Positions 12,737-60,844 of a DNA stretch of 64,000 nt are shown piece by piece. Position numbers and translations under genes: made by a program. This DNA is from Bacteroidia bacterium. GTDB lineage: Bacteria > Bacteroidota > Bacteroidia > Flavobacteriales > Flavobacteriaceae. Each line of letters starts with the position of its first letter. Position 1 is the first letter of the stretch. The notes beneath the pieces are model-generated. The model was not told where the DNA came from. It saw only the letters and a list, made by a program, of their open reading frames with translations, and did no database searches. The stretch spans positions 310,001 through 374,000 of the forward strand of contig JAUICK010000002.1 of NCBI GenBank assembly GCA_030427865.1, given 5' to 3'.

Positions 12737-12750
12737 AAGGTGTATACTCA

Positions 12751-12768
12751 ATGAGTACCATTTGCAGT
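12751..12768 (+). repeat. Left terminal inverted repeat of the 48-kb element (candidate attachment half-site)
   Basis: ATGAGTACCATTTGCAGT reads inward here. The identical 18 bases read inward on the other strand at 60818-60835, where the large serine recombinase gene ends. A six-base direct repeat TACTCA lies at 12745-12750 and 60829-60834. Joined ends would make a near-perfect palindrome, as expected for a serine-integrase attP site. Confidence 0.7.
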
Positions 12769-13200
12769 TTTAAGCTGAAGCCCAAGTTACGCAAAATACC
12801 TAAAGCAAAAACCTTTACCCACTCACTTGGTGAGTACATTCGTCACGAGCGACAGAAAAAACAAATTTCACAAGAATCATTAGCTAAAGATTTTGGCGTT
12901 AATGGTGTTGCACTATCTATGTGGGAACTAAAACGTAAACCAGTCCATCCAAAACGTTTTCAATCCGTAATTGATTTTCTTGGCTTTGTTCCAAAGAAAT
13001 CATCCAGGTTTGATAAGCTAGGTACACGTACTCAGTTATGGAGATTGCAAAATGATATTGACATTCAAGAATTTTCTGAATTGACAAACATTCCTGTAAA
13101 AGAGATTACACGAATAGAAACTGCTCGATATTGCAAGATAGATAACAAGGTCTCTAAGTCCGTTGAAAAGTTAATTAAAAACTCTTTTGTTATATCTTAA
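12751..13200 (+). CDS. XRE-family helix-turn-helix regulator at the element's left end
   Basis: The 149-residue protein has a Cro/C1-type HTH at about residues 27-70 (SLGEYIRHERQKKQISQESLAK, then GVNGVALSMWELKRK) and a second, HTH-like segment after 90. The annotated start ATG is the first base of the terminal repeat, so the first six codons coincide with the recombination site and any promoter would lie in the chromosomal flank. A later start is possible. Such a gene at an element border could control excision or its neighbours; that is inferred. Confidence 0.8.
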   Translation: MSTICSFKLKPKLRKIPKAKTFTHSLGEYIRHERQKKQISQESLAKDFGVNGVALSMWELKRKPVHPKRFQSVIDFLGFVPKKSSRFDKLGTRTQLWRLQNDIDIQEFSELTNIPVKEITRIETARYCKIDNKVSKSVEKLIKNSFVIS

Positions 13201-13268
13201 ACATAATCTATCTTGAGTTTAGCAGTTTAAAAACATAATTAGTTAAGAAATTTAATACCTTTAAAATA

Positions 13269-13415
13269 ATGAAAATTAAACAACCTTTTTCTACTGCCAT
13301 TTCTAATAAAGAACACCTCGTTAAAGCACAGGAAGTGTTTGAAAATGAAGTTCAGCCTAAGCTTGCTAAAAATGAAGAGGCATACCAAAAGTATATCCAA
13401 AATAAAGATTCTTAA
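13269..13415 (+). CDS. Small 48-residue protein, paralogue of the gene at 14114
   Basis: An ATG follows a purine-rich stretch and runs 48 codons to TAA. The product is charged and helical and ends VFENEVQPKLAKNEEAYQKY. The same spacing of EV.P.L..N..AY occurs in the 48-residue product at 14114-14260, so both are probably real. It fills part of the 360-bp space between the XRE gene and the toxin-antitoxin pair; the rest (13416-13560) shows no further gene. Function unknown. Confidence 0.5.
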   Translation: MKIKQPFSTAISNKEHLVKAQEVFENEVQPKLAKNEEAYQKYIQNKDS

Positions 13416-13560
13416 AACGATTTATCCTGCACATTTCCTCGATATGTAGTTACTTTTTCTGTGATTTAAAATTTCACTTTTCAAAAAGAGATATATGTAT
13501 TATAATTAGGAAAATCATTATTATCAAAAATATTTTACAAATTTTAATTAACTTAGACGT

Positions 13561-13812
13561 ATGGGAATAAAAGAAAAAATAATTAGCAGAGTCAATACCA
13601 TTGACAACCCTAAAATTCTTAGCAGTATTTTAAATTTGATTTCTTCTGAAACAGAAACCGATGAAGTCTATCAGTTCACAGATGATGAACGAGCACATGT
13701 GTCTCAAGGTATTGAAGATGCTGAAAATGGAAATGTTTACAGTCAAGAAGAATCAGATAACATCATTTCAAAATGGCTAGACGAGAAGTCAAGTGGACTC
13801 TTAGGGCAATAA
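13561..13812 (+). CDS. Antitoxin of a ParE/RelE-type toxin-antitoxin pair
   Basis: The 83-residue acidic protein ends with an overlap of 40 bp into the toxin gene. The pattern FTDDERAHVSQGIEDAENGNVYSQEESDNIISKWL is typical of the C-terminal neutralising segment of Bacteroidota ParD-like and PHD-like antitoxins. The N-terminus is helical and should bind DNA and autoregulate the pair. Specific subfamily is not certain. Confidence 0.8.
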   Translation: MGIKEKIISRVNTIDNPKILSSILNLISSETETDEVYQFTDDERAHVSQGIEDAENGNVYSQEESDNIISKWLDEKSSGLLGQ

Positions 13813-14069: not shown

Positions 14070-14073
14070 ACAT

Positions 14074-14099
14074 AACTGCCTTATTTTGGGCAGTTTTTT
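14074..14099 (+). terminator. Terminator of the toxin-antitoxin operon
   Basis: AACTGCC (14074-14080) pairs with GGCAGTT (14089-14095), followed by a T-run. It lies just past the toxin stop. Confidence 0.75.
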
Positions 14100-14113
14100 G
14101 TTACAAGTTAGAT

Positions 14114-14260: not shown

Positions 14261-14268
14261 GCTTTCCA

Positions 14269-17200
14269 TTACTTCTTCCCACGCAATGCTTTCATAATAA
14301 TATCGGTAATAGATGATTGCTTACTGGTATCATTATCCGTTTTATAATCCACTTTTACACGATAGCCACGAACACGTTTTACCTTTTGTTTCGGTTGTGT
14401 CAAAGCATCAAGATATAACTGAAGTTCTTCAGATTTAAAAAAGTGAATTTTTGAGTGTTGTTTTTTCGATATAGTTTTCAAGGCTTGATCCTTTATGTTT
14501 TTAAGATGCTTTTCATTTTCTGAAATCATATATACCAATGAATAGTCATCATCCAAACACTTTTGAATATTTTGAACTTCATAATCAACGCGATTAGTTA
14601 CTGAAATTTCAATGGCAATACGGACTTCATCTTTTAATAGCGAGACATCAACTTTACCACCATTTAAAGTAGAATCTTCAAGAGTTGCTTTAAATCCTCG
14701 TTGTAATGCCATAGACCGAACGTAATTTTGAATTGAACGATGCTGACGGACAATCTCCTGTTCTTCGGCTTGTTGTAAGTATTTTTCTTTGCGAGCCTCT
14801 AAGTCATCATTTATTTCTGAATTTTCAGTCGTTGGTGATGGTATTGTTTTAGTAACAATAGTTTTTTCTACTTCACTTTTCTTGTCCTCGGTAATTATAG
14901 GCTCAATAGTTTTTTCAACTTTGTGTGCTGGTTTTTCTACCTTGGCTTTAGCCTTTTTGGGTGTTTGCTTAGGAAGCAAAGAAGCTAACAACTCATCAAG
15001 TTCTGCTTTAGGTTTTGAATAGTTATTTCGTGTATTTGCTACAATACTATCCCTATTTACTTCGGCATTAGTCTCAGCTTCAGGTAATGGGAAGGTTGAA
15101 ATATTAAAATCTTCATGTGAAGAACCAACTCTCATAATAGCTTGTCCGATACCGAGATTCTGTAAATCATCTTGCTCAAAGTATGAGAAACCAGATTCTA
15201 AGCGTTTAGCATCGACATCACCTAATCTGAAGCAAATGCGGATGTATGGGTTTGAAATAACTGAATTTAAGGTCTTGGTATCATCAATTTGCGCGAGTTC
15301 TTGATGTGCTAACACTAAGCCAAGTCCATATTTTCTCGCCCCACTCAATATCCGTGTGATACTTGGCGTTATGAAATTCTGAAACTCATCAAGATAGATG
15401 TAATATGGATGACGCTCTTGTTTTGGTAATGACTGTCGCCCTTGTGCTACTTGGTTGAATTTTGACAGGAAAATAGAGCCTAAAAGGAAACTATTCTCCT
15501 CACCAATTAATCCTTGTGAAAGTTTGATAAGTACAATCTTTTTCTCTTCAATACAGGCGCTAAAATCAACGCCTTTATTTTGCGCCAACATATACCTAAG
15601 TATCTTCGGGCGTAGGAAGGTATCAATCCTTGTCAGAAGTGGTGCTATACCCCTTCGCACCATTGCGTACTCGTTATTCCAATAATAATGAATCGATGGG
15701 TCTTCAACCGAAGTTAAAAACTCTTTTCTAAAATTCTCTTCAAGTAAAAAGCGTTTGAGTTCAATGAGTGTTCCATCTCTGCTACTTTCCAAAAAGGTAT
15801 TAATAGCATTAGATAGAACAGCCGACATATTATCACCCCATGCAGTTGCGTGGCGTTTGAATGAGGATACTAAGTCTGAACTTAAAACTATCTTTTCTGC
15901 ATCGGTAGTTGCTCCAAGTAAATTAAATCCAATAGCATAATCGCTATCAGATGGGTCAATGAAAATAACATCATCTTTTCGATGTTCGGGAACACGAGCC
16001 AAAACATCTTCTACGATATCACCGTGAGGGTCGAATATAGCACAGCCATTGCCTTGCTTCATATCCTCAATGAGCATATTGGCAATCAAGGTCGATTTAC
16101 CGACACCAGTGGCACCAATGATGTGGGTATGACGTAAACGCATTTCATCATTCAGCATCACTTCAGTTTCAATTCCGTTATGTGAATTGATACCAAGTAG
16201 ATACTTTTGTCTTGTTACCGAAGAAGGTGCTTGTTTGGTCTTACCATCATTCAAACCAAGTTTGGCACTGACAACCGTTTTATTTGGATAATGAACAAAG
16301 GTGTTTAGCTCACTTGAGTTAAGGATAAATCCAAGGCGATTACTCAAACGATTAAGGAGGTTGTAGTAGTGAAAATCGTAACTGTAACCTTCATTGGTTA
16401 AGGGAATAAGTTTGTTGTATTCAGAGCTTGATACGGTCGTAATGCTTCGCGCTAGTTCTTGAGCTAAGTACTGACTGCGATAGTTATCATTCCCTTGGGT
16501 TGCAATACGCATTACTACTGAGAATAGTGGATTTGATATTTTATTCTTAGCGCATTGTGGCATCTCTGGTGCATCGGAAAAGAATGAACCACCAGCACCA
16601 TCGCTGACGGCATAGGTGATGTCTTTGGCAAGTGGAGATGTTATGCCCTTAAATATTGTTTGAAATACCAAAACGTCATTTGTTAGTAGGTATTCCATCG
16701 TTGCAATCATTGATGTTAAAGGATCTATGCTGAAATTGTCACTGGTGGCAATGGGTCTGACAAACTCATCATTCACGCCAAAATCTGCAATAGCAACATC
16801 TCTACTACTGTCAAAAACAAAATCAGTGCTATCGATATCCTTTATAATTACAGTCGGAAAATAAGCTCTTATATGTGATTCAATGCGACCTCTATCACCT
16901 TGATGGCACACAAATTGGATAGTGATACGTTCTGAAGTTCCAACGATTTCAAATGATATTGGGTGTTCTGAATATGCCAGCATATTCAAGAACTCTGTAT
17001 TTACTCTTGGAAGAATGTCTTGTCCTTTCGGAAATGTGATTGAAAACCCAACATATATTGGTGCATTTTCAGGAGCAAGAAAACGTGGTTCAAGCTCTTC
17101 AATCTCTTGTGATTCTTCTTTTTGTGGCGGACTCAACAGCTTACCGATGGATTGAAACAATGATGGTACTCGACCATCATCTATCTTTTTAAGTGATTGT

Positions 17201-17331
17201 TGTACAGGAAACTGAAACGAACGATATGGTGGTTCAATATCAATAGGCGACTCAAAATGATAGTACCCTCGATAGCGATAGTCCCACTCATAGAAATTAA
17301 GCGTTGCTTGTTCACTGTACGTTAATGACAT
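14269..17331 (-). CDS. HerA/VirD4-like conjugation-type ATPase with a C-terminal nuclease-like domain
   Basis: This 1020-residue protein is a HerA/VirD4-class DNA pump. The N-terminal ~340 residues form a DUF-like region seen in Bacteroidota transfer proteins. Walker A IIGATGVGKSTLIANML and its companion CAIFDPHGDIVEDVL lie near 400-440, and Walker B YYIYLDEFQNF near 645. A proline/lysine-rich linker follows, and the last ~150 residues (GGKVDVSLLKDEVRIAIEIS) resemble a PD-(D/E)xK core in which the lysine is replaced by serine. It pairs with a small membrane protein whose stop is only 4 bp upstream of its start. A role in DNA transfer is likely; no relaxase is near. Confidence 0.85.
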   Translation of the reverse strand: MSLTYSEQATLNFYEWDYRYRGYYHFESPIDIEPPYRSFQFPVQQSLKKIDDGRVPSLFQSIGKLLSPPQKEESQEIEELEPRFLAPENAPIYVGFSITFPKGQDILPRVNTEFLNMLAYSEHPISFEIVGTSERITIQFVCHQGDRGRIESHIRAYFPTVIIKDIDSTDFVFDSSRDVAIADFGVNDEFVRPIATSDNFSIDPLTSMIATMEYLLTNDVLVFQTIFKGITSPLAKDITYAVSDGAGGSFFSDAPEMPQCAKNKISNPLFSVVMRIATQGNDNYRSQYLAQELARSITTVSSSEYNKLIPLTNEGYSYDFHYYNLLNRLSNRLGFILNSSELNTFVHYPNKTVVSAKLGLNDGKTKQAPSSVTRQKYLLGINSHNGIETEVMLNDEMRLRHTHIIGATGVGKSTLIANMLIEDMKQGNGCAIFDPHGDIVEDVLARVPEHRKDDVIFIDPSDSDYAIGFNLLGATTDAEKIVLSSDLVSSFKRHATAWGDNMSAVLSNAINTFLESSRDGTLIELKRFLLEENFRKEFLTSVEDPSIHYYWNNEYAMVRRGIAPLLTRIDTFLRPKILRYMLAQNKGVDFSACIEEKKIVLIKLSQGLIGEENSFLLGSIFLSKFNQVAQGRQSLPKQERHPYYIYLDEFQNFITPSITRILSGARKYGLGLVLAHQELAQIDDTKTLNSVISNPYIRICFRLGDVDAKRLESGFSYFEQDDLQNLGIGQAIMRVGSSHEDFNISTFPLPEAETNAEVNRDSIVANTRNNYSKPKAELDELLASLLPKQTPKKAKAKVEKPAHKVEKTIEPIITEDKKSEVEKTIVTKTIPSPTTENSEINDDLEARKEKYLQQAEEQEIVRQHRSIQNYVRSMALQRGFKATLEDSTLNGGKVDVSLLKDEVRIAIEISVTNRVDYEVQNIQKCLDDDYSLVYMISENEKHLKNIKDQALKTISKKQHSKIHFFKSEELQLYLDALTQPKQKVKRVRGYRVKVDYKTDNDTSKQSSITDIIMKALRGKK

Positions 17332-17335
17332 CTAT

Positions 17336-19142: not shown

Positions 19143-20042
19143 TTAAGCGGTTTTTAAAAAACGACTTGCAGTACTTTTATATCTAGATTCTGAGAGTTGT
19201 AAATAATGGAAACTTGATTCAGGTGCAACGTGCCTAAGCAATGCAGATACATCTCTAACATTTCCACCTTTTTCCAGAATATTATTCGCCTTTCCATGTC
19301 GAAAACTATGCGGAGTGATATTCTTATTAACTAGAGTCATTCCAGTAATTTGCTTCATCCAACGTTGTACACTTCTTGGTGTGTATTTCTTCTGAGTTTT
19401 AGGATTGATAAATAGATAATTATTTTCCGACGTTGTATCCATACATAATCGCAGTCCTAAATAATTATTTAGTAGTCGATTAGTATCTGCGCCCCAAACC
19501 ACTAAATTATAGCGCATACTTTTTCGTGTGCGTACTTTGGCAGTTCGTAAACCATCCTTCCCTTGTGCGCTAATATCTGAAAGTTTTAAATCAAGCAATT
19601 CGCTGATACGCATTCCAGTATCCCATAGCATATGAAGAATGAGTTTTTTCATAAGGTCTGTAGAAAAGCGTTCATCTAGTACCATAGTCAATTGCTCGAA
19701 ATCGTCCTCATCCACAATATCCTTTTCTGCATTAACAAATTTGATAGCTTTAATTTCTTTAGGGTTTACAGAGGTTTGTTTTCTTCCTTTCCAAAACCAA
19801 AAATAATTTCTAATAATTCTTGCTGAGTAAGCTATGGTGGCATCACTATATTGTTGCTCTTCCATAAACTCATGGTAATCGATGATATCATCATTGGTAA
19901 TTGATTTTAATACTGTAATGTCTTTTTTGGATTCTAAATAGTTTGCTAGTAAATCCAATTGCCGTTTATACGGCACGTAAGTATGTTTAGTGTGTCGTAG
20001 TTTCCATTTAAGATAAGTCTTTATAGATTTTTGAATGTTCAT
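19143..20042 (-). CDS. Tyrosine recombinase (XerC/D-like)
   Basis: I choose the ATG at 20042 (MNIQKSIKTYLKWKLRH) because a terminator-like hairpin lies between it and the earlier ATG at 20087. The ~300-residue product has an N-terminal SAM-like DNA-binding domain and a catalytic domain with the first arginine in WDTGMRISELL, the H-x-x-R box in PHSFRHGKAN, the second R-H in ALLRHVAPES and the nucleophilic tyrosine in the last ~30 residues (LSESRYKST). It could integrate the element, resolve dimers or excise a part. The serine recombinase at the right end is the better candidate for integration. Confidence 0.92.
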   Translation of the reverse strand: MNIQKSIKTYLKWKLRHTKHTYVPYKRQLDLLANYLESKKDITVLKSITNDDIIDYHEFMEEQQYSDATIAYSARIIRNYFWFWKGRKQTSVNPKEIKAIKFVNAEKDIVDEDDFEQLTMVLDERFSTDLMKKLILHMLWDTGMRISELLDLKLSDISAQGKDGLRTAKVRTRKSMRYNLVVWGADTNRLLNNYLGLRLCMDTTSENNYLFINPKTQKKYTPRSVQRWMKQITGMTLVNKNITPHSFRHGKANNILEKGGNVRDVSALLRHVAPESSFHYLQLSESRYKSTASRFLKTA

Positions 20043-20051
20043 AATAACATA

Positions 20052-20084
20052 AAAGACCCGCCAAAAAGGATCTAGCGGGTCTTT
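20052..20084 (-). terminator. Terminator-like hairpin in the recombinase leader
   Basis: AAAGACCCGC (20052-20061) pairs perfectly with GCGGGTCTTT (20075-20084). On the minus strand it is followed by TTTT and, 10 bp later, by the recombinase start. It looks like an attenuator or the end of an upstream transcript. Confidence 0.6.
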
Positions 20085-20087
20085 CAT

Positions 20088-20436: not shown

Positions 20437-21609
20437 ATGTATTGGCATCATTCCCTGTTGTATGACGTCAGTTACTTTGCACGTACTAATTTTCGAACTG
20501 ACAGAAAGGTTTTTGGCATTAAACAAGCCGATAGACTATTTCATTTTTATTGTTTTGGAAAGTCTGGTACTGGTAAAACGTCACTATTAAAAACCCTAAT
20601 GCTACAAGATGCTGATGCACATCGTGGATTCGCCTTTGTAGATGTTCATGGTGACGCTTCTCGCGAGATTTACGAAAAGCTCAAAGGCCGCTTCATACAG
20701 AGAGACATTATTTACTTTGATGTGACCAATCCAGAATTACATTTTGGATACAATCCATTAAAACGTGTCTCGCCTTCAAAACGGTCACTAGTAGCTTCTA
20801 ATATTTTGGAAATCTTTCAGCGCAATTGGAAGAGTGCTTGGGGAATGAAAATGGAACATATTCTTAGAATGATTTTGCTAACATTATTGGATCAGCCGAA
20901 AGCCAAGCTTTCGGACGTCCTAAAACTTTTACATGAGAAATCATATCGAGATGCCTGTTTAAACCATATTCAAAACCAAGATATCAAAACCTTTTGGCTA
21001 AAGGAATTTCCAAAGTATAAACCGAATGATTTGTTACCCATTATGAACAAGCTCGGTGGCTTCTTAAGTCATACTATTGTTCGAAAGGTACTTATTGAAA
21101 ATCAAGAACAATTGTCCTTAAGGTCTATTATTGATAAGAAGCAGATTTTAATTATTAATGTTTCTAAAGGACATGTTGGAGCAGACGTTGCTAATATCCT
21201 TGGTGGCTTACTACTCACTTCCCTTGCCTCGGCATCCTTTTCACGAATTGATATTCGTGAGGAAGACCGAACCCCATTTTTCCTTTACATAGACGAATTC
21301 CAAACTTTAACAGGAACTGAACTCATTGCAGAACTTTTGGCACAAGTAAGGAAGTTTAAAATTGGTTTGGTATTAGCGAATCAATTTCTCTATCAGCTTG
21401 ACCCTCAAGTTCGAGCCAGTGTACTTGGAAACGTAGGCACCATAGTCGCCTTTAGGCTTGGAATTACTGATGCCAAACTTATGGCTAAAGAGTTCTATCC
21501 TGTCTTCAAAACCGAGGACTTTATTTCGCTTGCTAACTATTCAATTTATTTGAAATTAATGATAGATGGTAAGCCATCAATTCCTTTCAGTGCAGATACC
21601 ATTTTATAA
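20437..21609 (+). CDS. Second HerA/VirD4-like DNA-transfer ATPase
   Basis: The 390-residue protein is a compact P-loop ATPase: Walker A YCFGKSGTGKTSLLKTLM near residue 41, the following FAFVDVHGDASREIYEKL, Walker B FFLYIDEFQTL near 285 and a sensor-like VLANQFLYQLDPQVRASVLGN. It shares the FxDxHGD pattern with the 1020-residue ATPase at 14269, so the two are homologous, but it lacks the long N- and C-terminal regions. It starts MYWHHSLLYDVSYFARTNF. It heads a plus-strand operon with RadC and a methylase. It may pump DNA in transfer or in element maintenance. Confidence 0.85.
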   Translation: MYWHHSLLYDVSYFARTNFRTDRKVFGIKQADRLFHFYCFGKSGTGKTSLLKTLMLQDADAHRGFAFVDVHGDASREIYEKLKGRFIQRDIIYFDVTNPELHFGYNPLKRVSPSKRSLVASNILEIFQRNWKSAWGMKMEHILRMILLTLLDQPKAKLSDVLKLLHEKSYRDACLNHIQNQDIKTFWLKEFPKYKPNDLLPIMNKLGGFLSHTIVRKVLIENQEQLSLRSIIDKKQILIINVSKGHVGADVANILGGLLLTSLASASFSRIDIREEDRTPFFLYIDEFQTLTGTELIAELLAQVRKFKIGLVLANQFLYQLDPQVRASVLGNVGTIVAFRLGITDAKLMAKEFYPVFKTEDFISLANYSIYLKLMIDGKPSIPFSADTIL

Positions 21610-21660: not shown

Positions 21661-22119
21661 ATGACAAATTCTCTTTCAGAATTACAGCTTCACGAAGTTG
21701 AAATTCATTACAAACGACCTGTCTTAAATGACAAATTGAAAATAAAATCCTCTGAAGATTCAGTACGATTGCTTCGGCAGTTTATCGATACTAAGCGTAT
21801 TGATTATAAGGAATTCTTCTGGGTGCTATTACTCAATAATAACAACCAATTATTAGGCATAAGCGAAATCGCTATGGGTACGACCAATGGCGTTACCGTA
21901 AACATTAAAGAAGTATTTCAATTGGCTTTATTAACCAATGCAACCTGTATCATCGTGGCGCATAATCATCCGTCAGGGAAATTAACAGCCTCTGAATCTG
22001 ATAAACGCATAACACAAAAGCTGATGAAAGCTTCAAAATTACTCGACTTAACCTTGCTCGACCATCTTATTATCACCAGTGAAGATTTTATGTCTTACAG
22101 CGATAGTAGATGGGAGTGA
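21661..22119 (+). CDS. RadC-family JAB/MPN domain protein
   Basis: The 152-residue protein has the JAMM metal-binding pattern: an upstream E in GISEIAMGT, then VAHNHPSGKLTASESDK (H-x-H-P-S-G plus D). RadC-type proteins are common on mobile elements. Their enzymatic role is not established; the old claim of a repair function is doubtful. The N-terminal helix-hairpin-helix of chromosomal RadC is missing, as usual for the element-borne form. Its leader has the same TTAATACGA directly before ATG as the gene at 22952. Confidence 0.92.
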   Translation: MTNSLSELQLHEVEIHYKRPVLNDKLKIKSSEDSVRLLRQFIDTKRIDYKEFFWVLLLNNNNQLLGISEIAMGTTNGVTVNIKEVFQLALLTNATCIIVAHNHPSGKLTASESDKRITQKLMKASKLLDLTLLDHLIITSEDFMSYSDSRWE

Positions 22120-22131
22120 TGCCATCCTTGT

Positions 22132-22920
22132 ATGATAAAAACCCCAATCACGTATTACGGCGGAAAACAAAATTTAGCTAAACGCATTGTTGATTTGATG
22201 CCTGAGCATTCAGTCTATACTGAAGCCTTTGCAGGTGGCGGTGCGGTCTTCTTTTTGAAACCAAAAGTGACCAATGAAATCATTAACGATTCTGATGCAT
22301 TTGTTACCGTATTTTACAAAGTCCTTCAAGAAGATTTTGAAGCTTTAAAATCAAAGATTAAGGTCACTGCGTATTCTCGTGTGGTATATAACGTCGCATT
22401 GAGCATGTACAAGCAACCGACTTTTTTTACTGATTTACAACGTGCTTGGGCGTTCTTTGTGCTGACGAATATGGGATTTTCTGGACGTATTGGTTCCTTT
22501 GGTTGTTATACCAAAGGAACCAAAGCGATGGGCTGGGAACGTAAAAAAGAACTGTTCACACCAGAGCTTAAGGAACGCCTTATTGGTACACAAATTGAAT
22601 GTACTGATGCTCTCAAAATCATAGAGCTCAGAGATAGTCCTGAAACACTGCATTACATAGATCCACCATATTTTAATAGTTGTATGGGACATTATGATAA
22701 TTACACTCGTGAGGACTTCATTGCCCTTCTGAAAGTGTTATCAAATATCAAAGGTAAGTTCATATTAAGTTCTTACCCTTCTGATGAACTATCCCTTTAC
22801 ACCAAAGAGTTTGGTTGGCATACAAAAACCATTGACCAATTGGTTACAGCTAATCAAACCAAATCCAAGAAAAACAGAACCAAAACGGAAGTTATTACTA
22901 CCAACTTCCCTGTGGATTAA
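22132..22920 (+). CDS. D12-class N6-adenine DNA methyltransferase
   Basis: The 262-residue protein opens ITYYGGKQNLAKRIVDLMPEH, with the AdoMet-binding motif AFAGGGAVFFLKP and the catalytic motif LHYIDPPYF (DPPY). This is the Dam/D12 family. The specificity (for example GATC) cannot be read. No matching endonuclease gene is adjacent, so it is an orphan methylase that may protect the element or overlap with BREX methylation. It lies 12 bp after the RadC gene. Confidence 0.93.
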   Translation: MIKTPITYYGGKQNLAKRIVDLMPEHSVYTEAFAGGGAVFFLKPKVTNEIINDSDAFVTVFYKVLQEDFEALKSKIKVTAYSRVVYNVALSMYKQPTFFTDLQRAWAFFVLTNMGFSGRIGSFGCYTKGTKAMGWERKKELFTPELKERLIGTQIECTDALKIIELRDSPETLHYIDPPYFNSCMGHYDNYTREDFIALLKVLSNIKGKFILSSYPSDELSLYTKEFGWHTKTIDQLVTANQTKSKKNRTKTEVITTNFPVD

Positions 22921-25706: not shown

Positions 25707-27731
25707 TTAAGCTTTTACAAAAGTAACCTCACATGCCTTGCATAATCTTTTTTCCTGCATGTATTCGTTAATGTCATACCAACCACCAGTTTTTTGCCAA
25801 ATATCGAGACCTCTTCCCAAGACTATTTTCCAGCCATTATCTAAAATTATTGATCTATCATGAATAAAATCATCAAATTCATAACTAAAAATAATACCAA
25901 TACCTTCTAGTGAATATTGCATTTGCTCAAATGCTTCTTTTGCATCTTCTATGTACTCTTCATTATTAGCTGTTACTAAGTGTAACTTTAGCTCCGCTTC
26001 TAAAGCCTTTTTTTCAGACAATAGCTTAGCGAATTCCATAAAGTTTCGTAATTGGTAAGGCAGTCTTACATAAGGATCAATAATCTTAACGTTAGTCGCA
26101 TCAATAAGGTAGGCTCCAAATAATAGGTCGTAGGAAATGCCTGTTTGATTATCTCTAATAATCTTTTGACCACCAGACAACTCAAGGGATACTTTGTTAG
26201 GTTTATTAATAGCACTTTCATTATCTGCTTCTTTATCAACAAAACCTTCAGGCTTCGTTATGGTGTCTGTATCATTCTCAATAACTTCTAAAGTTTCAAT
26301 TGTTACAACTTCCCCAGAGCTCTTTATTGTGTAACTAAAATCTACGGGTTCCTCTAAAAACGTTTCGTCCATTTTTTCGAGTTGTTGCTTTACCCGTTTT
26401 CTATTTTCAATAGCGAAATCCAATAGTTCTCTTGCTTCAGTTTCATCAAAATTCCCTTGAGGATAAATGACTTTAATAAGACCAGCAAACGTCTTTTCGA
26501 TTGCTGTTTTATCTCTTGTAGTAATGGAATTAGATAGTTCAAAAAACTGTACATACTCATTTGTTCTATCTTCTTTTCTTAAGTATCGTAATATTTCAGC
26601 CAAATAATCAACAATAAACCCGTAGTCTGAGCTAAACATTTCATTACGTAATTTAAGCACTTCCCAACCAGGTAGATAAGCATGCATTCTATCTAAGAAG
26701 GCTGTGTCATAATAATCTCTCGGTAATGCTTCAAACAAATCACTATGCTTAAGCATGTAAGGTACCGAGTGGTCAGTATTTCCTACAAACACCATAGATG
26801 CCGAAGCACCATATTGTTGCGTACCTCTTGAAAAGAATTTATTTGCCATGTAATTCTTTAAAATATCAACCAATCCTCGATCTGATTTTTTTGTTTTACC
26901 AGCAAATTCGTCATAAGCAACAACGTCCCAATACCCAACTAATCCTATTTCTCCTGTGCTATTATTGACAAATAACTTTGCCTTTGAGACTTCGCCTCCC
27001 GAAATAAGCATTCCATGAGGTGATAATTCAGAAAAAATATGAGACTTCCCTGTTCCTTTTGGGCCTAACTCTATTAGATTATAATTATTCTCAACAAAAG
27101 GTACTAGTCTTGTTAACTGAAGTAATTTTGAACGTTTTGTAAACTCATCAGGGTTTAATCCTATGGACTGCATTAGGACATCTATCCATTCTTCTGTGGT
27201 GAATTGTTCTCTAGCGTTTTTATACTCATCAATATCAACATTTGAAATTTGTATGGGCTTTATGTTTTCAATAATCCAAGGCACTGTGCCTTTCTCATCC
27301 GATGAAAAATAGGCTAAGGTCAAAATACACCAAACGCCGCTAGCAAGAAGTTTTTGGTGAGTTTTGATAACATCGGCAGAGATTGGTATGCGACTTAAGC
27401 CTAAATTTGCAAATGAGGCTTCATATTGATCTTTGACATCATTAAGTTTTACTGAAACCTTGTCAATAATTCTGTGAGAGCCTTTTTCTCTCACTGTTGA
27501 TTTAATAATGTTAGCTTCGTCTCTATGAACAAAATGCTTAGAAATAATACTCTTTACTGTTTCTACGCCTTGATTAATAGTTTCTTCATCATCGGTAGCG
27601 CAGTATTGGCCAAGCAGGTATTCTAAAACATAAGTAGGTACAATGGCGTTACCTTTAACGAGTTTGGTTAAATCTTTTCTAACCACCTTTCCTTCAAAAT
27701 GGTCGTTTAATTTTCTATCTAATGCCTTCAT
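25707..27731 (-). CDS. brxL: BrxL-like AAA+ ATPase with a C-terminal MITD1-like domain
   Basis: I choose the ATG at 27731, 4 bp after the pglZ stop, over the TTG at 27749. The 674-residue protein has a BrxL-type N-terminal domain, Walker A LGPKGTGKSHIFSEL near 223-236, Walker B VVAYDEFAGK and sensor VFVGNTD, typical of the AAA+ BrxL. The last ~145 residues do not look like Lon protease: they carry IIDPYVRLPYQLRNFMEFAKLL and IHDRSIILDNGWKIVLGRGL, the hallmarks of the MITD1 C-terminal phospholipase D-like domain. BrxL is a DNA-binding ring needed for BREX activity. This version may use the C-terminal module for binding or membrane contact. Confidence 0.88.
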   Translation of the reverse strand: MKALDRKLNDHFEGKVVRKDLTKLVKGNAIVPTYVLEYLLGQYCATDDEETINQGVETVKSIISKHFVHRDEANIIKSTVREKGSHRIIDKVSVKLNDVKDQYEASFANLGLSRIPISADVIKTHQKLLASGVWCILTLAYFSSDEKGTVPWIIENIKPIQISNVDIDEYKNAREQFTTEEWIDVLMQSIGLNPDEFTKRSKLLQLTRLVPFVENNYNLIELGPKGTGKSHIFSELSPHGMLISGGEVSKAKLFVNNSTGEIGLVGYWDVVAYDEFAGKTKKSDRGLVDILKNYMANKFFSRGTQQYGASASMVFVGNTDHSVPYMLKHSDLFEALPRDYYDTAFLDRMHAYLPGWEVLKLRNEMFSSDYGFIVDYLAEILRYLRKEDRTNEYVQFFELSNSITTRDKTAIEKTFAGLIKVIYPQGNFDETEARELLDFAIENRKRVKQQLEKMDETFLEEPVDFSYTIKSSGEVVTIETLEVIENDTDTITKPEGFVDKEADNESAINKPNKVSLELSGGQKIIRDNQTGISYDLLFGAYLIDATNVKIIDPYVRLPYQLRNFMEFAKLLSEKKALEAELKLHLVTANNEEYIEDAKEAFEQMQYSLEGIGIIFSYEFDDFIHDRSIILDNGWKIVLGRGLDIWQKTGGWYDINEYMQEKRLCKACEVTFVKA

Positions 27732-27735
27732 ATTT

Positions 27736-30231
27736 TTAGAAATCGTCAAAATCGTTTGTGAATGAAATGTTTAGTGTATAGAAGTAGTTTTTATAAACCT
27801 TCCATTTTGTAGTACCTTCTACGGGTTCTTCTAAAACCAGTTGCACCCGTTGATTTTTATATTTACCACTAGCTTTGGACATTAGCTGAAAACGATGTTT
27901 TACTTCTCGCTGTCGTTCACTGCCCATTTTAATGTCAAAATTATAAGTAAACACATCACTTAAAAGCTCTTTGTTTTCAGTATAAATACCCGCACGTATG
28001 GTTCTAGGTAACACCTGTGATTCTACGAGATTAGATTGAATAAATGACACTGCTAATATATTAGTGGTGATTCTATCCGTAGATTTAATAATGTCTATGT
28101 CTACTTGAGTAGTGGTATCTTGTCGTTTTTTACTCACTTTGATTAGTGGAATTACAATTTCTTGCATTGTAGCACCACCATGAACAAAACGTGAACCTGC
28201 ACCGCTTATTCTTAATCTATTTACAGATTTAGGTATCAATACATTCACATTAGAATCAATATTTAATTCTGAACCTTTAAATGCTTTTGTGGTGTCATCG
28301 CCTTTTAGGTCTTCACCTATTACAAAGCGTCGATTTTCTTTCCAAATATCCCCTGAATGTCTTGTTGTTAAAAAATCGCTTTCATCCAAATCACTATATT
28401 GATAAACATAACCATGGTCTGATGTTATTAACATATTATTACCGTTCATGTTTGCAATTTTCTTAATTACATCCATAAGAAAACTAAGTTCTTGTTCAAC
28501 CGCATCAAATAATCGCTCCTCTGTTGCTTTATCGTCACCAGTTTTATCAATTCGATTGTGATATATGTAAATGAGATCGTATTCTTTTACAAAAGCTCGC
28601 CCTTCTTTATTTGCATTCATATTCATAAAATCCTCAGCTTGAATTGCAGTGGCTCTTACTCCAGAATTAGTTGCTAGAATTTTTGAACGCCCTTTAGTAC
28701 CTAAACTTGACATACCATCTATAATTACCGTATCTGTAGGTTCTTTAAGGGATATCTTTTTATGTGGCAATAAGGAAGCCATACCAAGCTGTGTGTAGCA
28801 AGGCAAGCTACTTACCATAAAATTATGAGAAGACTCATATCTGTTTTCTGATTGTAATTTTTTGCTCAATTCTACGCCATTTTCATAGCGTAAAGCATCG
28901 GATATTATGACAAAAAGGCGTTGGTTTTTCTGTATAAAAGGATTAACGTGTTGCGTAAAAAATTGCTGCTGGCTGTACATTTCTTTCGTAGGCCATTCTT
29001 TTAAATCATCGATAACATTTTGCCAGTTATTATTGAATTTTAAAAGCCAGTCGTTGGCATAGACTTTTTCTATTTTATCGATTAATTTTGAAAGTATTCT
29101 GTTTTGTTTGGCTTGCCTAAAACTGGATACAAATTTTCTGTAAGCTAGGTCTACTCGGTATAGATTAGTTGCATAATTTTCTACACCATCATTAAAATTA
29201 GAATATTTAGCTTTATTATACTTACGAATTAAGCTTATAGTTTCAGCACCATATTCTATGCTATTGTATAAAGCCTCAGATTGTTTATACCAAAACTTGT
29301 TTTCTCGTTGCTTTTTAAACTGTAAAACCTTTTCATACGATATTGTGTCATTTACAATATCATCTACAAGTGCGTGGATGATTTTTTTATCTACTAAACG
29401 AAATAGATCATCGTTAATAATTTGCTCTATTTCTGTATGTTGTAGTTTAGATTCAACATCAATATCCTCAGAAATTTTATCAGATACAGCACCAAAACTA
29501 TCTCGGTATTGAATGGTATCTTTCCATAAGGCAATTACTAAACGTGATTCTTTAGTAAGTTGAGATGTATGTCCTAAAGCAAAACTATGATTAAAAATCT
29601 CTAACAAGAAATCATAAATAGTTGGTGTCTCAGCGTCATAGTTGAACTTATACTTTATTTTTCCCCAATAATAAGATTTTAGTTTAAAGCGTTCTAAATC
29701 TCTATCGCATTTGGTATTGTCGTCTATATAAGCAGTGCTATGGGCGTGAATAAATGTATTGAGCCCTACATATTCCGTATTAAATACAACAGCAAGCATT
29801 TTGCTTCGAATATCTTCGTGTTTGTCATCAACGCCAATAAGCTCTTTTAGTTTTAGTCTACGTTCCTTAGATTTAAAGAATTCAATATGTTCTGTAACCA
29901 GTTCTTTGAGATGATATCCCAAGCCAATATCCTGCAAAAACAGGGCTTCTTGGTCGGTATGGAATAGGTGATACGCCAACTCCAAATCTAACAACCAATT
30001 GGTCTCGTTACTTGGTTTCTTTATAGAAAAATACAAGAGGAATTTTCGTGTTGGATGCGCTTTAATTATTTTATATTTTACTCTGAACTCATTGTTAGCG
30101 ACGTGGATTTTTTCTACACCGTCAATATTCAGCTCAGTAAATTGTTCAAACAACTCCTTCTTTTCATCGTACCAAAAAATAACGCGATATTCTTGAAATT
30201 TCTTTATTAATGCGTCTTCTACCTTACTCAT
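27736..30231 (-). CDS. pglZ: BREX phosphatase-like protein PglZ
   Basis: The 831-residue protein has the PglZ alkaline-phosphatase-superfamily core from about residue 420: VIISDALRYENGVELSKKL holds the first metal-binding aspartate, MLITSDHGYVYQ the later D-H pair, and a further histidine follows in FVHGGATMQEIVIPLI. The N-terminal 400 residues are helical and the last 100 form a beta domain. PglZ is a core BREX component, required for host methylation and phage defence. It overlaps the upstream TPR-S1 gene by 4 bp. Confidence 0.95.
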   Translation of the reverse strand: MSKVEDALIKKFQEYRVIFWYDEKKELFEQFTELNIDGVEKIHVANNEFRVKYKIIKAHPTRKFLLYFSIKKPSNETNWLLDLELAYHLFHTDQEALFLQDIGLGYHLKELVTEHIEFFKSKERRLKLKELIGVDDKHEDIRSKMLAVVFNTEYVGLNTFIHAHSTAYIDDNTKCDRDLERFKLKSYYWGKIKYKFNYDAETPTIYDFLLEIFNHSFALGHTSQLTKESRLVIALWKDTIQYRDSFGAVSDKISEDIDVESKLQHTEIEQIINDDLFRLVDKKIIHALVDDIVNDTISYEKVLQFKKQRENKFWYKQSEALYNSIEYGAETISLIRKYNKAKYSNFNDGVENYATNLYRVDLAYRKFVSSFRQAKQNRILSKLIDKIEKVYANDWLLKFNNNWQNVIDDLKEWPTKEMYSQQQFFTQHVNPFIQKNQRLFVIISDALRYENGVELSKKLQSENRYESSHNFMVSSLPCYTQLGMASLLPHKKISLKEPTDTVIIDGMSSLGTKGRSKILATNSGVRATAIQAEDFMNMNANKEGRAFVKEYDLIYIYHNRIDKTGDDKATEERLFDAVEQELSFLMDVIKKIANMNGNNMLITSDHGYVYQYSDLDESDFLTTRHSGDIWKENRRFVIGEDLKGDDTTKAFKGSELNIDSNVNVLIPKSVNRLRISGAGSRFVHGGATMQEIVIPLIKVSKKRQDTTTQVDIDIIKSTDRITTNILAVSFIQSNLVESQVLPRTIRAGIYTENKELLSDVFTYNFDIKMGSERQREVKHRFQLMSKASGKYKNQRVQLVLEEPVEGTTKWKVYKNYFYTLNISFTNDFDDF

Positions 30232-34750: not shown

Positions 34751-34755
34751 AATCT

Positions 34756-43740: not shown

Positions 43741-44321
43741 TGTTTTACTTCTATTTTATCAATGTTAAATGCTCTGTAATAGTTGTCGTCTTTAAGTAAG
43801 CTAAATAGGTTTAAAGAATGCCCATTGTATTCCCCAGGAAAAAAAGCAACTGTAGGACAGTCTTTAGCGATGCTCTGTAAATTATTTAAAATGTTGTGTG
43901 AGCGGATGTAAGGAAATACTAATCCAATACCAGTTAAAAAATATACCTTGGCATTAGTATTTTGGATTAAGCTATTTATTTTCGGCATTAAAACTTGATG
44001 AATTTCTAGTACAGATTGTATGGCATCTAAAAACTCTTCTTTATCCATATCTTCTTCAATACTAAAGAATTCTTCAAGACCTATCTCATCATCCAAAATG
44101 TCGCAAACTACATCGTATAAATTTATTTCTAAAACAGGTACGCCTGAAGATTCTAACTTCTTTACCAAGCGTTTTATCCCATCGGCAACAGCTAACTCAT
44201 GTTGGGCATTGTATGCCGCTATAAAAAAAGGAATTTCACCACCTAAAGCTTCTTTACTTAGAAACCTAGCTGATGATATGACTTGATATAAGTGTTTAAA
44301 TTTGTTTGTAAGCTTTTCCAT
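43737..44321 (-). CDS. brxB: BREX protein BrxB (DUF1788)
   Basis: The 194-residue protein fits DUF1788: LTNKFKHLYQVISSARFLSKEALGGEIPFFIAAY at the N-terminus and FFPGEYNGHSLNLFSLLKDDNYYRAFNI near the end. BrxB is a small core protein of type I BREX that probably links BrxC and PglZ. It starts immediately after the brxA stop and ends overlapping brxC by 4 bp. Confidence 0.93.
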   Translation of the reverse strand: MEKLTNKFKHLYQVISSARFLSKEALGGEIPFFIAAYNAQHELAVADGIKRLVKKLESSGVPVLEINLYDVVCDILDDEIGLEEFFSIEEDMDKEEFLDAIQSVLEIHQVLMPKINSLIQNTNAKVYFLTGIGLVFPYIRSHNILNNLQSIAKDCPTVAFFPGEYNGHSLNLFSLLKDDNYYRAFNIDKIEVKQ

Positions 44322-44918
44322 CTAATCTATTCTTTCTATATCCATATCACTTAAAAAGAACAGTTTTAGCCACTCTTTATCATCTTTATGAATTGCCTGA
44401 ATTACTTTGCTGTCCAGTATTTGAGGCTGTATTTGTTTTTCTTTAATGTTGTTTATAATTCCAGCTTCTTCCAAGGTCTTAAAAAGGACTTGCCGAATTT
44501 TTTTTAATGTTAATTCAGTATAATCATTCATTCTTGAATTTGATTCTAATTTGCGTCTTAAAAAGGATACATATTCACCTTCAGTTAAATAATAATCAAA
44601 TACCAAAACTTTTTCTCTACAGACCTCAAGAATAAAATCTCTTATAAAACCATAAACCTTGCACATAGATAGAAATGCAATTTGTCTTTGCGCATATAAA
44701 TCACCATGAATTAAAATATCCTTTTCCGCTTCTGTTAAACTTTCGAGTCTTTTTTTAATTTCAATTAAAAATCTTTTCCCAGAACTTGTTTTACCCCGTG
44801 CAATCTCTTGAATAATATCAGTATCATCATCCTTTTGATGTGCTCCAGCAACTTTTACTAATTCTTTTACTCGCAGAGATAGTGCAGTAAAACCAAAATC
44901 ATATGTATTCGCCACCAT
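44322..44918 (-). CDS. brxA: BREX protein BrxA (DUF1819)
   Basis: The ATG at 44918 is preferred over the TTG at 44921; its A is shared with the TGA stop of the small HTH gene upstream, so translation is coupled. The ~198-residue protein matches DUF1819: FTALSLRVKELVKVAGAHQK, then VCREKVLVFDYYLTEGEYVSFLRRKLE and LKKIRQVLFKTLEEAGII. BrxA is a helical DNA-binding BREX component. Confidence 0.93.
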   Translation of the reverse strand: MVANTYDFGFTALSLRVKELVKVAGAHQKDDDTDIIQEIARGKTSSGKRFLIEIKKRLESLTEAEKDILIHGDLYAQRQIAFLSMCKVYGFIRDFILEVCREKVLVFDYYLTEGEYVSFLRRKLESNSRMNDYTELTLKKIRQVLFKTLEEAGIINNIKEKQIQPQILDSKVIQAIHKDDKEWLKLFFLSDMDIERID

Positions 44919-45094
44919 CAATGCACAAGTTCATTTACAGGAACTTGTAAAAGCTCGCTTAGTTTTTCTAAATTCTTCTTACTTGGGGTTGATTTTGCTT
45001 TAACCCAATTTGACATGGTAACTTCACTGACACCAATGCGCTTTGCGAGATAAGCCTGTTTAAGCCCTTTTGATTTAATAATATCTTTCAGCAT
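44918..45094 (-). CDS. Short XRE-type helix-turn-helix regulator, first gene of the core BREX run
   Basis: This 58-residue gene is easily missed. It reads MLKDIIKSKGLKQAYLAKRI then GVSEVTMSNWVKAKSTPSKK, a complete Cro/C1 HTH, and ends NELVH. Its TGA overlaps the ATG of brxA (TGATG). It follows an 18-bp palindrome in the presumed promoter region, which is a natural operator. It probably represses or controls the BREX genes. The isolated HTH with no further domain is typical of such autoregulators. Confidence 0.85.
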   Translation of the reverse strand: MLKDIIKSKGLKQAYLAKRIGVSEVTMSNWVKAKSTPSKKNLEKLSELLQVPVNELVH

Positions 45095-46445: not shown

Positions 46446-47441
46446 TCAAATATAGTAGGATTTCATTTGCGCTACATGTTCTTGAAGCATTTTTTTTAAG
46501 GATTCTGGCGCGAGTACTTCAACATCTTTACCATAAGATAAAATTTGCTGAATGAGTTCTCTGTTTACAATAGTCTCAAACCAGACTTGGTCTTTTTTAT
46601 CATCTTCAAAAAACTCATCAAAATCTGGATGAAATGGTTTGGTTTTAAAGTATTGTTCCCTGCCATTATAAAATTTGAGAACAATCTTTTGTAAACCAGC
46701 ATTTTGAGGTCTTACAACACCAACCATCTCTCTAAAATGTAAGTCCCAGTTTGTTTTGTTCTCCTTAAAAGAAACATCCTCATCTACATCGAAGGCAATT
46801 AACCTTTCATCTAAAGGAATACTCCACTTTGGGTTATTGGTATTTGCATTGTAACCAAATACAAACCAGCGTCTGTTATATTGTTTTAAAACGTATGGAT
46901 GAAATTCAAAGGTATATGAAGCTTCATCATGAAAGCCTTGATATGTAATTTTGAGAACTTGTTGCTTTTGAATAGCTAGGTATAAAGGTTTTAAGTACCT
47001 AATGCCTTTGTATTCATCATTGTGGTCGTAAAATAGAATTTGATTGGTACTGCCTTGTTGCTCCTCATCTTGAAATTTGATTAAAGCTTCTGCGAGCTTA
47101 TCGTATTTAGGATGGTTTTCAAAACGCTGTAATAATTGTTGCGCTCCCTCAATTAAATACCTTTCATAGTCTAACAAAGGACATTTAGCGATTGAGAAAT
47201 TTGGGTCGTCATATTTTAAAATTCTTGCTTTCTCGGGTAGTGGTGCAGCAAAGCCATTTTCTTTATCCCTAAACACTTTTAAATCGTCACGAAGCGTCCT
47301 AACAGAAACCGCTTCATTTTCATAATAGTAGGACAACTGTTCGTTTACATACTCATGTAATTGGCTAAAGGTAAACGATCGTTTTCTGAAGCAATAGTCT
47401 AAAATATTATAACGCAGATGGGCATGTTTGCTGTAGGACAT
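46446..47441 (-). CDS. WYL-domain transcriptional regulator, candidate BrxR
   Basis: The 331-residue protein has an N-terminal winged helix (residues ~10-60), a WYL domain around 145-230 (VLKITYQGFHDEASYTFEF, HPYVLKQYNRRWFVFGYNAN, WSIPLDERLIAF) and a C-terminal extension ending VLAPESLKKMLQEHVAQMKS. WYL proteins with this layout regulate BREX and other defence islands (BrxR). It is the first gene of the leftward defence block, 64 bp before DUF2130. The ligand is unknown; oligonucleotide binding has been proposed for the fold. Confidence 0.88.
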   Translation of the reverse strand: MSYSKHAHLRYNILDYCFRKRSFTFSQLHEYVNEQLSYYYENEAVSVRTLRDDLKVFRDKENGFAAPLPEKARILKYDDPNFSIAKCPLLDYERYLIEGAQQLLQRFENHPKYDKLAEALIKFQDEEQQGSTNQILFYDHNDEYKGIRYLKPLYLAIQKQQVLKITYQGFHDEASYTFEFHPYVLKQYNRRWFVFGYNANTNNPKWSIPLDERLIAFDVDEDVSFKENKTNWDLHFREMVGVVRPQNAGLQKIVLKFYNGREQYFKTKPFHPDFDEFFEDDKKDQVWFETIVNRELIQQILSYGKDVEVLAPESLKKMLQEHVAQMKSYYI

Positions 47442-57278: not shown

Positions 57279-57324
57279 GTGTTTTTGTTTTTAACAAACA
57301 TCTTAAATCTTTAACAAAAAAAAT

Positions 57325-57341: not shown

Positions 57342-57350
57342 ATTTTAATC

Positions 57351-59171: not shown

Positions 59172-59224
59172 AATATAGTTTAGGGTTAATGGCTAAATAT
59201 AAATGTTAAAATTTTAGCATTCAA

Positions 59225-59232
59225 TACATTTG
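59225..59232 (+). promoter_or_regulatory. -7 promoter box upstream of the serine recombinase
   Basis: TACATTTG matches TAnnTTTG. It lies 134 bp before the recombinase start, leaving a long leader. The 194-bp gap 59172-59365 shows no gene. Confidence 0.45.
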
Positions 59233-59365
59233 CAATATTTACAGAAAAAAATATCTACATCATTGTTTTAATATAAATTTTACAGTGAATTATTGATTCC
59301 AGCATTTCCTTGCATTCACGAAACAGTTGTTTTAGCTTAGCGTTTATCCAAAAAACAGAGAATAC

Positions 59366-60844
59366 ATGAAAAAGCGAGTTGGCGTGTGGATACGAGTTTC
59401 CACCAAGAATCAACAACAATCCGACAGCCCAGAACATCATCTACAAAAAGCAAAGATGTACGCTGAGTTGAAAGACTGGGAAATTGTAGAGGAATACCAC
59501 TTAGAAGCTGTCAGTGGCAAAAGTGTTATCGAACACCACGAAGCCCAACGTATGATGCGAGATATCCAAAGTGGTCATGTAGAAGGCTTAATCTTCTCGA
59601 AGATTGCACGGTTTGCTCGTAATGTAAAAGAACTCTTGGAATTCTCAGAGCACTTTCAGAAGTATAAGGCAGACATGATATCCCTAAGTGAGTCGATTGA
59701 TACGAGTACGCCTTCAGGTCGCTTCTTTTTTACCATGATTTCAGCTATGGGTCAATGGGAACGTGAGAACATTGTAGAGCGTATTAAATCATCGGTCGAA
59801 GTGAGAGCCAAAATGGGAAAGGTTATGGGTGGTATTCCTTTTGGGTATAAGAAGGTTGGGAAAGATGATATGGCATTAGATGAACACGAAGCACCAATTC
59901 GTAAGATGATGTTTGATTTATTCTTGGAACATAAACGTCATGCCACCGTAGCAAACATACTTAACGAGAAAGGATATCGCACCAAACGGAAAAGTAAGTT
60001 CACAGGTACTACCGTAAAACGACTATTACAAGACCCAACTGCCAAAGGCATCAGACGTTCACACTGCACCAAAATAGATGAGAATGGTAGAACGGTGATG
60101 CGTGATAAATCAGAATGGTTTATCCATGAAGCACCACGAATTGTATCAGATGAAGTATGGGACGAAGTAAACGATATCATCCGTAAACAAGAAAAAGAAA
60201 AAGTACAACCGCTTAATAAGAAATTAAATCTCTTTACTAGCTATCTCTATTGTGCTAATTGTGATGAAAAAATGTATGTCCCTTCATCCAATCCAAAATA
60301 TACCTGTAAAAGCTGTAAGCAAAAAATACATGTAGATGATATCGAAGCTATTTTTAAAGAACAATTAACTGAGTTCATTATTTCAGAAGAAGAAGTGAAT
60401 CGTTACTTCGATGGTACGCATGCGGTCATCAGAGAAAAAGAACAAGAGATTGAAAATGTGAATTCAGAAATACAAAAACTTGAAACCAAGATTGAAAAGC
60501 TTTTTGAACTTCATGAACAAGGACAAATAGATACCAATAGGTTCAAAGATTTCTATGATAAACCAAATAACCAAGTACAACAATTAAAGCTTAGAATCCC
60601 ACGAATTGAAGGTGAGATATATGCCTTGAAAGACCAATTCAAATCAAGCGGATATATTATTGAAGAAGCTCGTTCGTTATATGAAAACTGGGACAAACTT
60701 ACGAAACAACAGAAACGTAACATCATAGAAATCATAACCGAAAAAATAGTAGTATCAGAACAGGAAGTGAACATCACGCTTAACTACATTCTTCCAAAGA
60801 CACCGTCTTTGAAAACGACTGCAAATGGTACTCATGGACTATAA
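59366..60844 (+). CDS. Large serine recombinase, likely integrase of the 48-kb element
   Basis: The 492-residue protein has the resolvase domain (VGVWIRVSTKNQQ, nucleophile Ser12), a recombinase domain (about 165-290: GGIPFGYKKVGKDDMALDE, SHCTKIDENGRTV), a zinc ribbon (CANCDEKM, CKSCKQK near 296-316) and a coiled coil (about 350-400). This is the large serine integrase layout. Its last codons lie inside the right 18-bp inverted repeat, and the sequence past CTCAT, including the stop, may come from the chromosome. The element would be excised and integrated by this enzyme. Confidence 0.93.
   Translation: MKKRVGVWIRVSTKNQQQSDSPEHHLQKAKMYAELKDWEIVEEYHLEAVSGKSVIEHHEAQRMMRDIQSGHVEGLIFSKIARFARNVKELLEFSEHFQKYKADMISLSESIDTSTPSGRFFFTMISAMGQWERENIVERIKSSVEVRAKMGKVMGGIPFGYKKVGKDDMALDEHEAPIRKMMFDLFLEHKRHATVANILNEKGYRTKRKSKFTGTTVKRLLQDPTAKGIRRSHCTKIDENGRTVMRDKSEWFIHEAPRIVSDEVWDEVNDIIRKQEKEKVQPLNKKLNLFTSYLYCANCDEKMYVPSSNPKYTCKSCKQKIHVDDIEAIFKEQLTEFIISEEEVNRYFDGTHAVIREKEQEIENVNSEIQKLETKIEKLFELHEQGQIDTNRFKDFYDKPNNQVQQLKLRIPRIEGEIYALKDQFKSSGYIIEEARSLYENWDKLTKQQKRNIIEIITEKIVVSEQEVNITLNYILPKTPSLKTTANGTHGL
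60818..60835 (-). repeat. Right terminal inverted repeat of the 48-kb element (candidate attachment half-site)
   Basis: ACTGCAAATGGTACTCAT is the exact reverse complement of the left repeat at 12751-12768, 48 kb away. It overlaps the 3' end of the serine recombinase gene. The TACTCA at 60829-60834 is a direct match to 12745-12750 and could hold the crossover. Confidence 0.7.

Follow-up and report, generated by a model that had tools for sequence, protein, structure and literature searches.

A BREX island in an integron attC site and a serine integrase gene probably split by its own integration

The closest precedents for the locus described here are phage Mx8 and SSV. The Mx8 enzyme, which we take to be a tyrosine integrase, comes from a phage, and integration of SSV partitions the integrase gene. 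Integron attC sites, for their part, are known targets of the IS1111 group and of group IIC introns. In Mx8 of Myxococcus, attP is reported to be part of the sequence that encodes the integrase, and on integration int acquires a different 3' end with a changed specificity (PMC6070905). The integrase of SSV-type archaeal viruses is described as extending across attP (PMC4383910).

The window, that is the whole 64,000-nucleotide stretch of Flavobacteriaceae DNA that was analysed, contains an arrangement of this kind (Table 1). Judging by named relatives, the host is probably a Polaribacter-like member of this family. We propose, with a probability of about 0.78, that a mobile BREX island has integrated in the window, that its serine integrase has attP inside its own reading frame, and that this frame was split on integration into an attC site. 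The ends of the island, the crossover core, the frame of the fusion, the split in relatives and the attC target were all read by sequence comparison.

Table 1. Positions of features in the window and of the related elements and arrays referred to in the text.
Feature	Position	Strand	Basis
Left part of target attC (R''/L'' boxes), ends in TATA core	12728..12746	+	With island removed, continues into 60840-60960; repeat uninterrupted elsewhere
TATA crossover core, left end (attL)	12743..12746	.	Common to both flanks and L033/L035 joined site; same core in G012, G014, G062, G060
P' arm of attP, contains 18-mer	12747..12768	+	20/22 bases inverted-identical to other arm
Severed HTH (XRE) domain, 149 aa	12751..13200	+	HTH_3 above cut-off; second HTH-like stretch slightly below cut-off
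TraG/VirD4-like ATPase, 1020 aa, shared backbone beside int-HTH	14269..17331	-	TrwB_AAD_bind, TraG-D_C; same place in L033, L035
Backbone protein, 213 aa	17336..17977	-	Homologue comes after TraG-like gene in L033, L035
XerC/D-like tyrosine recombinase	19143..20087	-	PF00589
Second TraG/VirD4-like ATPase	20437..21609	+	TrwB_AAD_bind
RadC-like JAB protein	21661..22119	+	PF04002
D12 class adenine DNA methyltransferase	22132..22920	+	PF02086
brxL	25707..27749	-	Pfam, PADLOC
pglZ	27736..30231	-	Pfam, PADLOC
TPR/S1-domain protein, within BREX operon	30228..31793	-	S1; PADLOC TPR-OB
NERD / UvrD-like helicase, within BREX operon	31790..34783	-	Pfam; PADLOC PDC-M16A
pglX	34756..38373	-	Eco57I; PglX (PADLOC)
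GmrSD-type nuclease, within BREX operon	38381..40231	-	Domain match
brxC	40243..43740	-	Pfam, PADLOC
brxB	43737..44321	-	Pfam, PADLOC
brxA	44322..44921	-	Pfam, PADLOC
WYL/WCX regulator	46446..47441	-	Domain match
Large serine integrase, 492 aa, truncated form	59366..60844	+	PF00239 + PF07508; runs into HTH gene in L033, L035
P arm of attP, contains 18-mer, within integrase gene	60818..60839	+	18-mer match, arm alignment
TATA crossover core, right end (attR)	60840..60843	.	Same comparison of flanks with joined site
Right part of target attC (loop, L' and R' boxes, CATACAC..ACCGTT)	60840..60960	+	Same repeat uninterrupted elsewhere
Cassette array stretches (loci L192-L204)	G062 C3:642790-709771, G062 C4:185-52389, G012 C1:2953985-3054999	one strand each	
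G002	HTH 4091254, int 4144064		Split layout
G010	HTH 85689, int 39520	minus	Split layout
G024	HTH 49463, int 16702	minus	Split layout

A sequence-only reading of the window had suggested an integrated element carrying inverted serine-integrase half-sites at both ends, in the form of two inverted 18-bp repeats, and this has held up. ATGAGTACCATTTGCAGT is found exactly at 12751-12768 on the plus strand and at 60818-60835 on the minus strand, the right copy falls within the 3'-terminal part of the gene for the serine recombinase, as had been said, and the ends of the relatives also carry arms. A third match with up to three mismatches is absent from the window, where shuffling gives an expectation of 0.05, and the 18-mer is not scattered elsewhere, since none further was found at up to two mismatches in the rest of the 3.34-Mb genome. 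An inverted-arm score of at least 10 was reached by 9 of 12 own pairs and by 11 of 108 cross-clade pairs. The arms of G014, G062 and G647 scored 8, 8 and 9, close to the control mean of 8.1; aligned in register, those of G014 and G062 nevertheless agree in 15 of 22 positions. AAATGG-like motifs are present in the arms of G002, G010, G024 and G005.

Two relatives, L033 and L035, have naturally joined ends, in which two 18-bp arms surround GGACTATACTCA. The junction in L033 reads ACTGCAAATGGTACTCAT-GGACTATACTCA-ATGAGTACCATTTGCAGT and that in L035 differs by one arm base; the joined site is symmetrical about the middle (AT) of TATA, which is palindromic. In the window, the right flank reads GGAC-TATA-AGCAAT and the left flank CAAGGTG-TATA-CTCAATG. 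Since TATA is common to both flanks and to the joined site, the exchange is placed within it, with the integrated stretch extending from 12743 to 60843 and an island length of 48,097 bp; the free form would presumably be a circle. This comparison also revises the sequence-only reading in two details. The hexamer TACTCA, which had been put forward as a possible crossover, is indeed present at 12745-12750 and 60829-60834, but the joined relatives give TATA as the site of exchange, and the expected 35-bp palindrome centred on one A is replaced by a natural joined site of 18 + 12 + 18 bp. Since inverted repeats are carried at both ends, the 18-mers might also be taken for the terminal repeats of a transposon. 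However, a target-site duplication is absent beyond the common core, the natural joined sites have a fixed 12-bp centre, and in five elements the insertion point is one and the same base of a single type of target. Transposon ends, an extremely improbable origin in our view, were therefore ruled out by the joined sites and by the repeated use of one target base.

The enzyme encoded at the right end has the domain order of large serine integrases, a Resolvase catalytic domain (PF00239, 108.5 bits) followed by a Recombinase domain (PF07508, 69.5 bits), and it is presumably this serine integrase that carries out the recombination. Membership of the staphylococcal Ccr (SCC) group was considered and rejected, as the CcrB NCBIfam model gave 172 bits against a cut-off of 900. 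The stop codon of the integrase, TAA, is host (attC) DNA (CTA-TAA). In both L033 and L035 integrase and HTH form a single open frame of 646 aa, in which the joint reads ...GTHGL-YS-MSTICSF..., and the window integrase terminates directly after GTHGL. The HTH domain at the opposite end of the island is accordingly in frame as the C-terminal part of a fused integrase when the ends are joined. Since the joined state contains one in-frame int-HTH gene, integration would sever the HTH domain; the fused protein is thus predicted to be producible only with joined ends, and integrase newly made after integration to lack the HTH. The window HTH retains an ATG at the arm, and its separate translation is still possible. 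It is under purifying selection, with dN/dS values of 0.10, 0.13 and 0.12 for the pairwise comparisons of the window, L033 and L035; the value for the integrase of L033 versus L035 is 0.035. The sequence-only reading, sound as to the half-sites, had missed the int-HTH frame across the joined site, together with the BREX content and the attC target.

A search of genome contigs yielded six integrase relatives with 82-95% identity. The same-clade elements of G012, G014, G062 and G060 have the HTH at one end (left) and the integrase at the other (right), on the same strand and contig. In all five mapped attC elements (these four and the window) the break is at the same TATA, and joining the ends would keep the frame. 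The HTHs of the four are just 44-51% identical to that of the window, which suggests that the frame has been maintained over a long divergence. Altogether, ten elements besides that of the window have this layout, with the HTH upstream and the integrase downstream on one strand and contig, and their flanks read as attC repeats, comM-like genes or ssb-like genes. More distant integrases at 42-44% identity (G002, G010 and G024) show the same split, and in G005 (41%) the HTH match and the integrase are on separate contigs. Among 395 Bacteroidota genomes there were 9 further integrase matches in 7 genomes, none of which reaches beyond residue 494 of the fused query, the start of the HTH. A profile of the HTH remnant, searched after the prediction had been made, placed a remnant on the same contig and strand and on the expected side in G601, G647 and G867; G516 has several copies with ambiguous pairing, the HTH matches of G524 and G729 are on other contigs, and in G595 the profile search gave no HTH remnant.

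Two loci of the same clade, L037 and L038, fit this layout less neatly. In L037 the arm is followed by CTAT-TG instead of TATA, such that only the central AT would be common, and an HTH was looked for in this genome without one being found. In L038 (9695-11234) the reading frame of the integrase stays open beyond the core and runs into another HTH-like sequence, to which the HTH profile gives 23.5 bits, so that it has the look of a fusion to a different partner; this integrase is frameshifted further up. The integrase of G014 (C1:3698281-3699751; L005, L024) was matched as two overlapping pieces in different frames, and the copy therefore looks frameshifted. A comM-like (Mg chelatase family) gene is interrupted in G002, G010, G601, G867 and G647 (L006, L007, L186, L187, L210, L212, L213, L218, L219, L222) and an ssb-like gene in G024 and G005, these names being a reading of the flanks and not a database assignment; by the same reading, the ssb-like targets have a non-palindromic centre (CA).

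Fused proteins are also present in the protein database, where 31 of the best 120 of 2902 matches are fused and 89 unfused. Of these 89 listed unfused relatives, 29 end at the core residue, 6 have a tail that fits the reverse orientation (LYT[LMV]-like) and 54 fit neither. Some fused homologues are found on contigs of 98-183 kb. Stand-alone HTH proteins are numerous, with 647 matching a part-composed bait at E 1e-10, and a loose PALPFC-like pattern following a stretch of variable length occurs in 93 of the 120 listed, at least one of them accidentally. None of the annotated phage or plasmid records covers 80% of the fused protein. In viral contigs, the three best matches to the fused profile (42-43%) are unfused, among 80 of 275 relatives kept, and a single-protein scan found no relative there.

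It could be argued that the fusion is a by-product, attP having come by chance to occupy a 3' portion of the gene for the integrase, with no stop before a downstream HTH gene. An attP beside int is common in phages, and the integrated copies keep the split integrase open, implying that it may work without the HTH. However, the frame is kept in 5/5 elements despite the divergence of their HTHs from that of the window, and this, together with the proportion of fused proteins among the listed homologues and the purifying selection on the HTH, makes a chance fusion quite improbable.

The unsplit copy L033 (3442-20180, G059 C3) consists of a Bacteroidota-type backbone with an intact int-HTH gene in a chromosome-like contig, so that the fused gene is not always free. 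It is flanked by genes read as Patescibacteria housekeeping type, and could represent either a real transfer or an assembly chimera. Since the element is bounded by a 15-bp direct repeat, entry at this place was seemingly not via attP, and the element opens near a XerC-like gene rather than at attP. General carriage of such elements by Patescibacteria was considered, but only 2 of 286 genomes match at 1e-30, one of them L033's own, which speaks against it.

When the island is removed, the flanks rebuild a repeat of about 138 bp, an attC site of the kind that makes up integron-type arrays. A model of the repeat, limited to 150 scored candidates in each genome, identified 43 copies in G000, 142 in G062, 20 in G014 and at least 150 in G012. 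At least 26 of 166 genus genomes contain a match of at least 80 bp that is uninterrupted across the window break point. Among the matches listed for these 166 genomes, with three candidates scored in each, none spans cassette gene, repeat and MATCAP gene as the exact empty locus would. The gene for this MATCAP-type metallopeptidase (window 60964-62124) terminates next to the target attC, and many of the genus genomes have retained it.

Circular integron cassettes are recognised by the pairing of an R'' box with the start of its own cassette. In G062 and G012 the three one-strand stretches contain 61, 54 and 125 distinct repeats with a median spacing of 908, 850 and 498 bp. The start of the cassette pairs with its own R'' box at 5/5 bases in 49/56, 47/51 and 114/117 cassettes (210/224 overall, for G062 and G012 only), against a random-pair rate of 4.5, 4.0 and 13.5%, and the start of the next cassette does so at about chance (0/59, 1/52 and 19/124); 13 of 237 adjacent pairs were excluded because a box could not be located or the spacing was above 2.5 kb. 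In these two genomes the tandem, same-strand attC sites with R'' boxes complementary to their own cassette starts are thus of integron type. A 389-aa tyrosine recombinase is encoded close to the contig-3 stretch of G062 and next to that of G012. It scores 197 bits with TIGR02249, below the cut-off of 265 for an integron IntI, and passes NF040815 with 229 against 220; in G000, positions 181-239 of the TIGR02249 profile are unmatched. The array-side recombinase is XerA/XerC-like and lacks the IntI-specific segment, and an IntI-based finder might class the G062 and G012 arrays as CALINs. Integrons have been reported from Bacteroidota in general (PMC8618304). The G062 element sits at the end of an array stretch, and the target repeat resumes behind it.

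Within attC, the elements of the window, G012, G062 and G060 all point the same way, and that of G014 (one of the five mapped) is reversed, with ...CCATTAAT-TATA as the left and TATA-CACGGTGTG as the right flank. Since the core is palindromic, the island can apparently enter in either orientation.

As for the cargo, brxA, brxB, brxC, pglX, pglZ and brxL are all present by Pfam and PADLOC, and we therefore assign the island, from its predicted genes, to the BREX islands with a type I gene set. It also encodes a TPR protein and a protein with a type IX secretion tail. As regards a possible integrative conjugative element, the Pfam scan, which covered part of the island ORFs, showed two TraG-like ATPases.

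We propose that the free, joined form would encode one 646-aa protein, composed of the serine integrase, a hinge encoded by attP and the HTH domain. The integrase would recombine attP, which has 18-bp arms, a 12-bp centre and a TATA core, with the TATA inside the attC L'' box, and integration would split the gene, the integrase taking its stop from attC and the HTH half coming to lie 48 kb away at the other end. If the HTH domain aids attP x attB, its loss would lock the island in, which would amount to a cis-acting one-way switch. This lock is the least certain part of the model and is offered tentatively, at slightly less than even odds. We favour it on two grounds: the integrase that Mx8, with attP in int, makes once integrated reportedly differs in specificity, and the fused form is available at the stage at which the element has to integrate.

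The HTH might instead be a directionality factor joined to the integrase, whose separation on integration changes the direction of the reaction as in man-made integrase-RDF fusions. We consider this unlikely, and to our knowledge there is no RDF of this HTH kind. The man-made fusions are reported to catalyse attL x attR and to be less efficient at attP x attB (PMC5737554). An RDF role is the poorer fit because the man-made joined protein favours excision, whereas here the joined protein exists when integration is needed.

It also seems doubtful that the HTH is mainly a Cro/C2-like transcriptional repressor of element genes, which, through the fusion, would be expressed from the promoter of the integrase gene while the element is free and be off after integration. 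The HTH part of the fused profile does match P22 C2 repressor chains, and G002, G010 and G024 lack a methionine from the last stop up to the HTH (counting methionine starts only), which implies that the HTH may not be made there when integrated. A repressor, however, needs no fusion to the integrase, since a two-gene operon would suffice; furthermore, the window HTH has its own ATG and that of G005 is preceded by host-derived methionines.

Beyond this island, we find it somewhat more likely than not that a widespread class of serine integrases senses its own integration state in cis, with attP forming the hinge that links the recombinase to a C-terminal HTH, with the arm sequence encoded in the protein itself (the two inverted arms of the window being the ANG codons and the TIC codons), and with targets switched among comM-like genes, ssb-like genes and attC. 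With attP in the recombinase-HTH hinge, the product of recombination would only be able to make a different enzyme. A literature search, conducted largely without subscription journals, found no report of a serine-integrase island in attC or of a serine integrase with a detachable HTH. The proposed switch would be a natural route by which the integration reaction itself could make an integrase one-way, and it would open serine integrase directionality to testing with two natural versions of one enzyme. A large defence island is also seen here to use attC sites, of which more than 100 are possible per genome, as landing pads, thereby linking two gene-capture systems. If the lock works, the int-HTH pair would be a lead for irreversible insertion tools.

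The island has the brx and pgl genes of BREX type I islands, but differs from them in the extra GmrSD, helicase and TPR/S1 genes of its operon and in its carrier, a serine-integrase element in an attC site. Like the IS1111 group and group IIC introns it is inserted at a fixed attC position, but here the insertion is a 48-kb serine-integrase island, it is in the L'' box, and it occurs in both orientations. With the man-made serine integrase-RDF fusions (PMC5737554), the int-HTH protein would share an extra C-terminal domain changing direction; those proteins are engineered, however, their domain is an RDF, and the reaction does not remove it. As in Mx8 and SSV, the joined attachment site is inside the integrase frame, as seen in the 646-aa ORFs of L033 and L035 and in the frame at the core in 5/5 elements, but the window enzyme is a serine recombinase and not a tyrosine integrase. 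The SSV enzymes are tyrosine recombinases too, and here, in contrast to SSV, the catalytic half stays whole. Mx8 has attP within the integrase gene as this island does, but whereas Mx8 swaps in a new tail, the HTH domain would here be cut off and left at the far end of the island.
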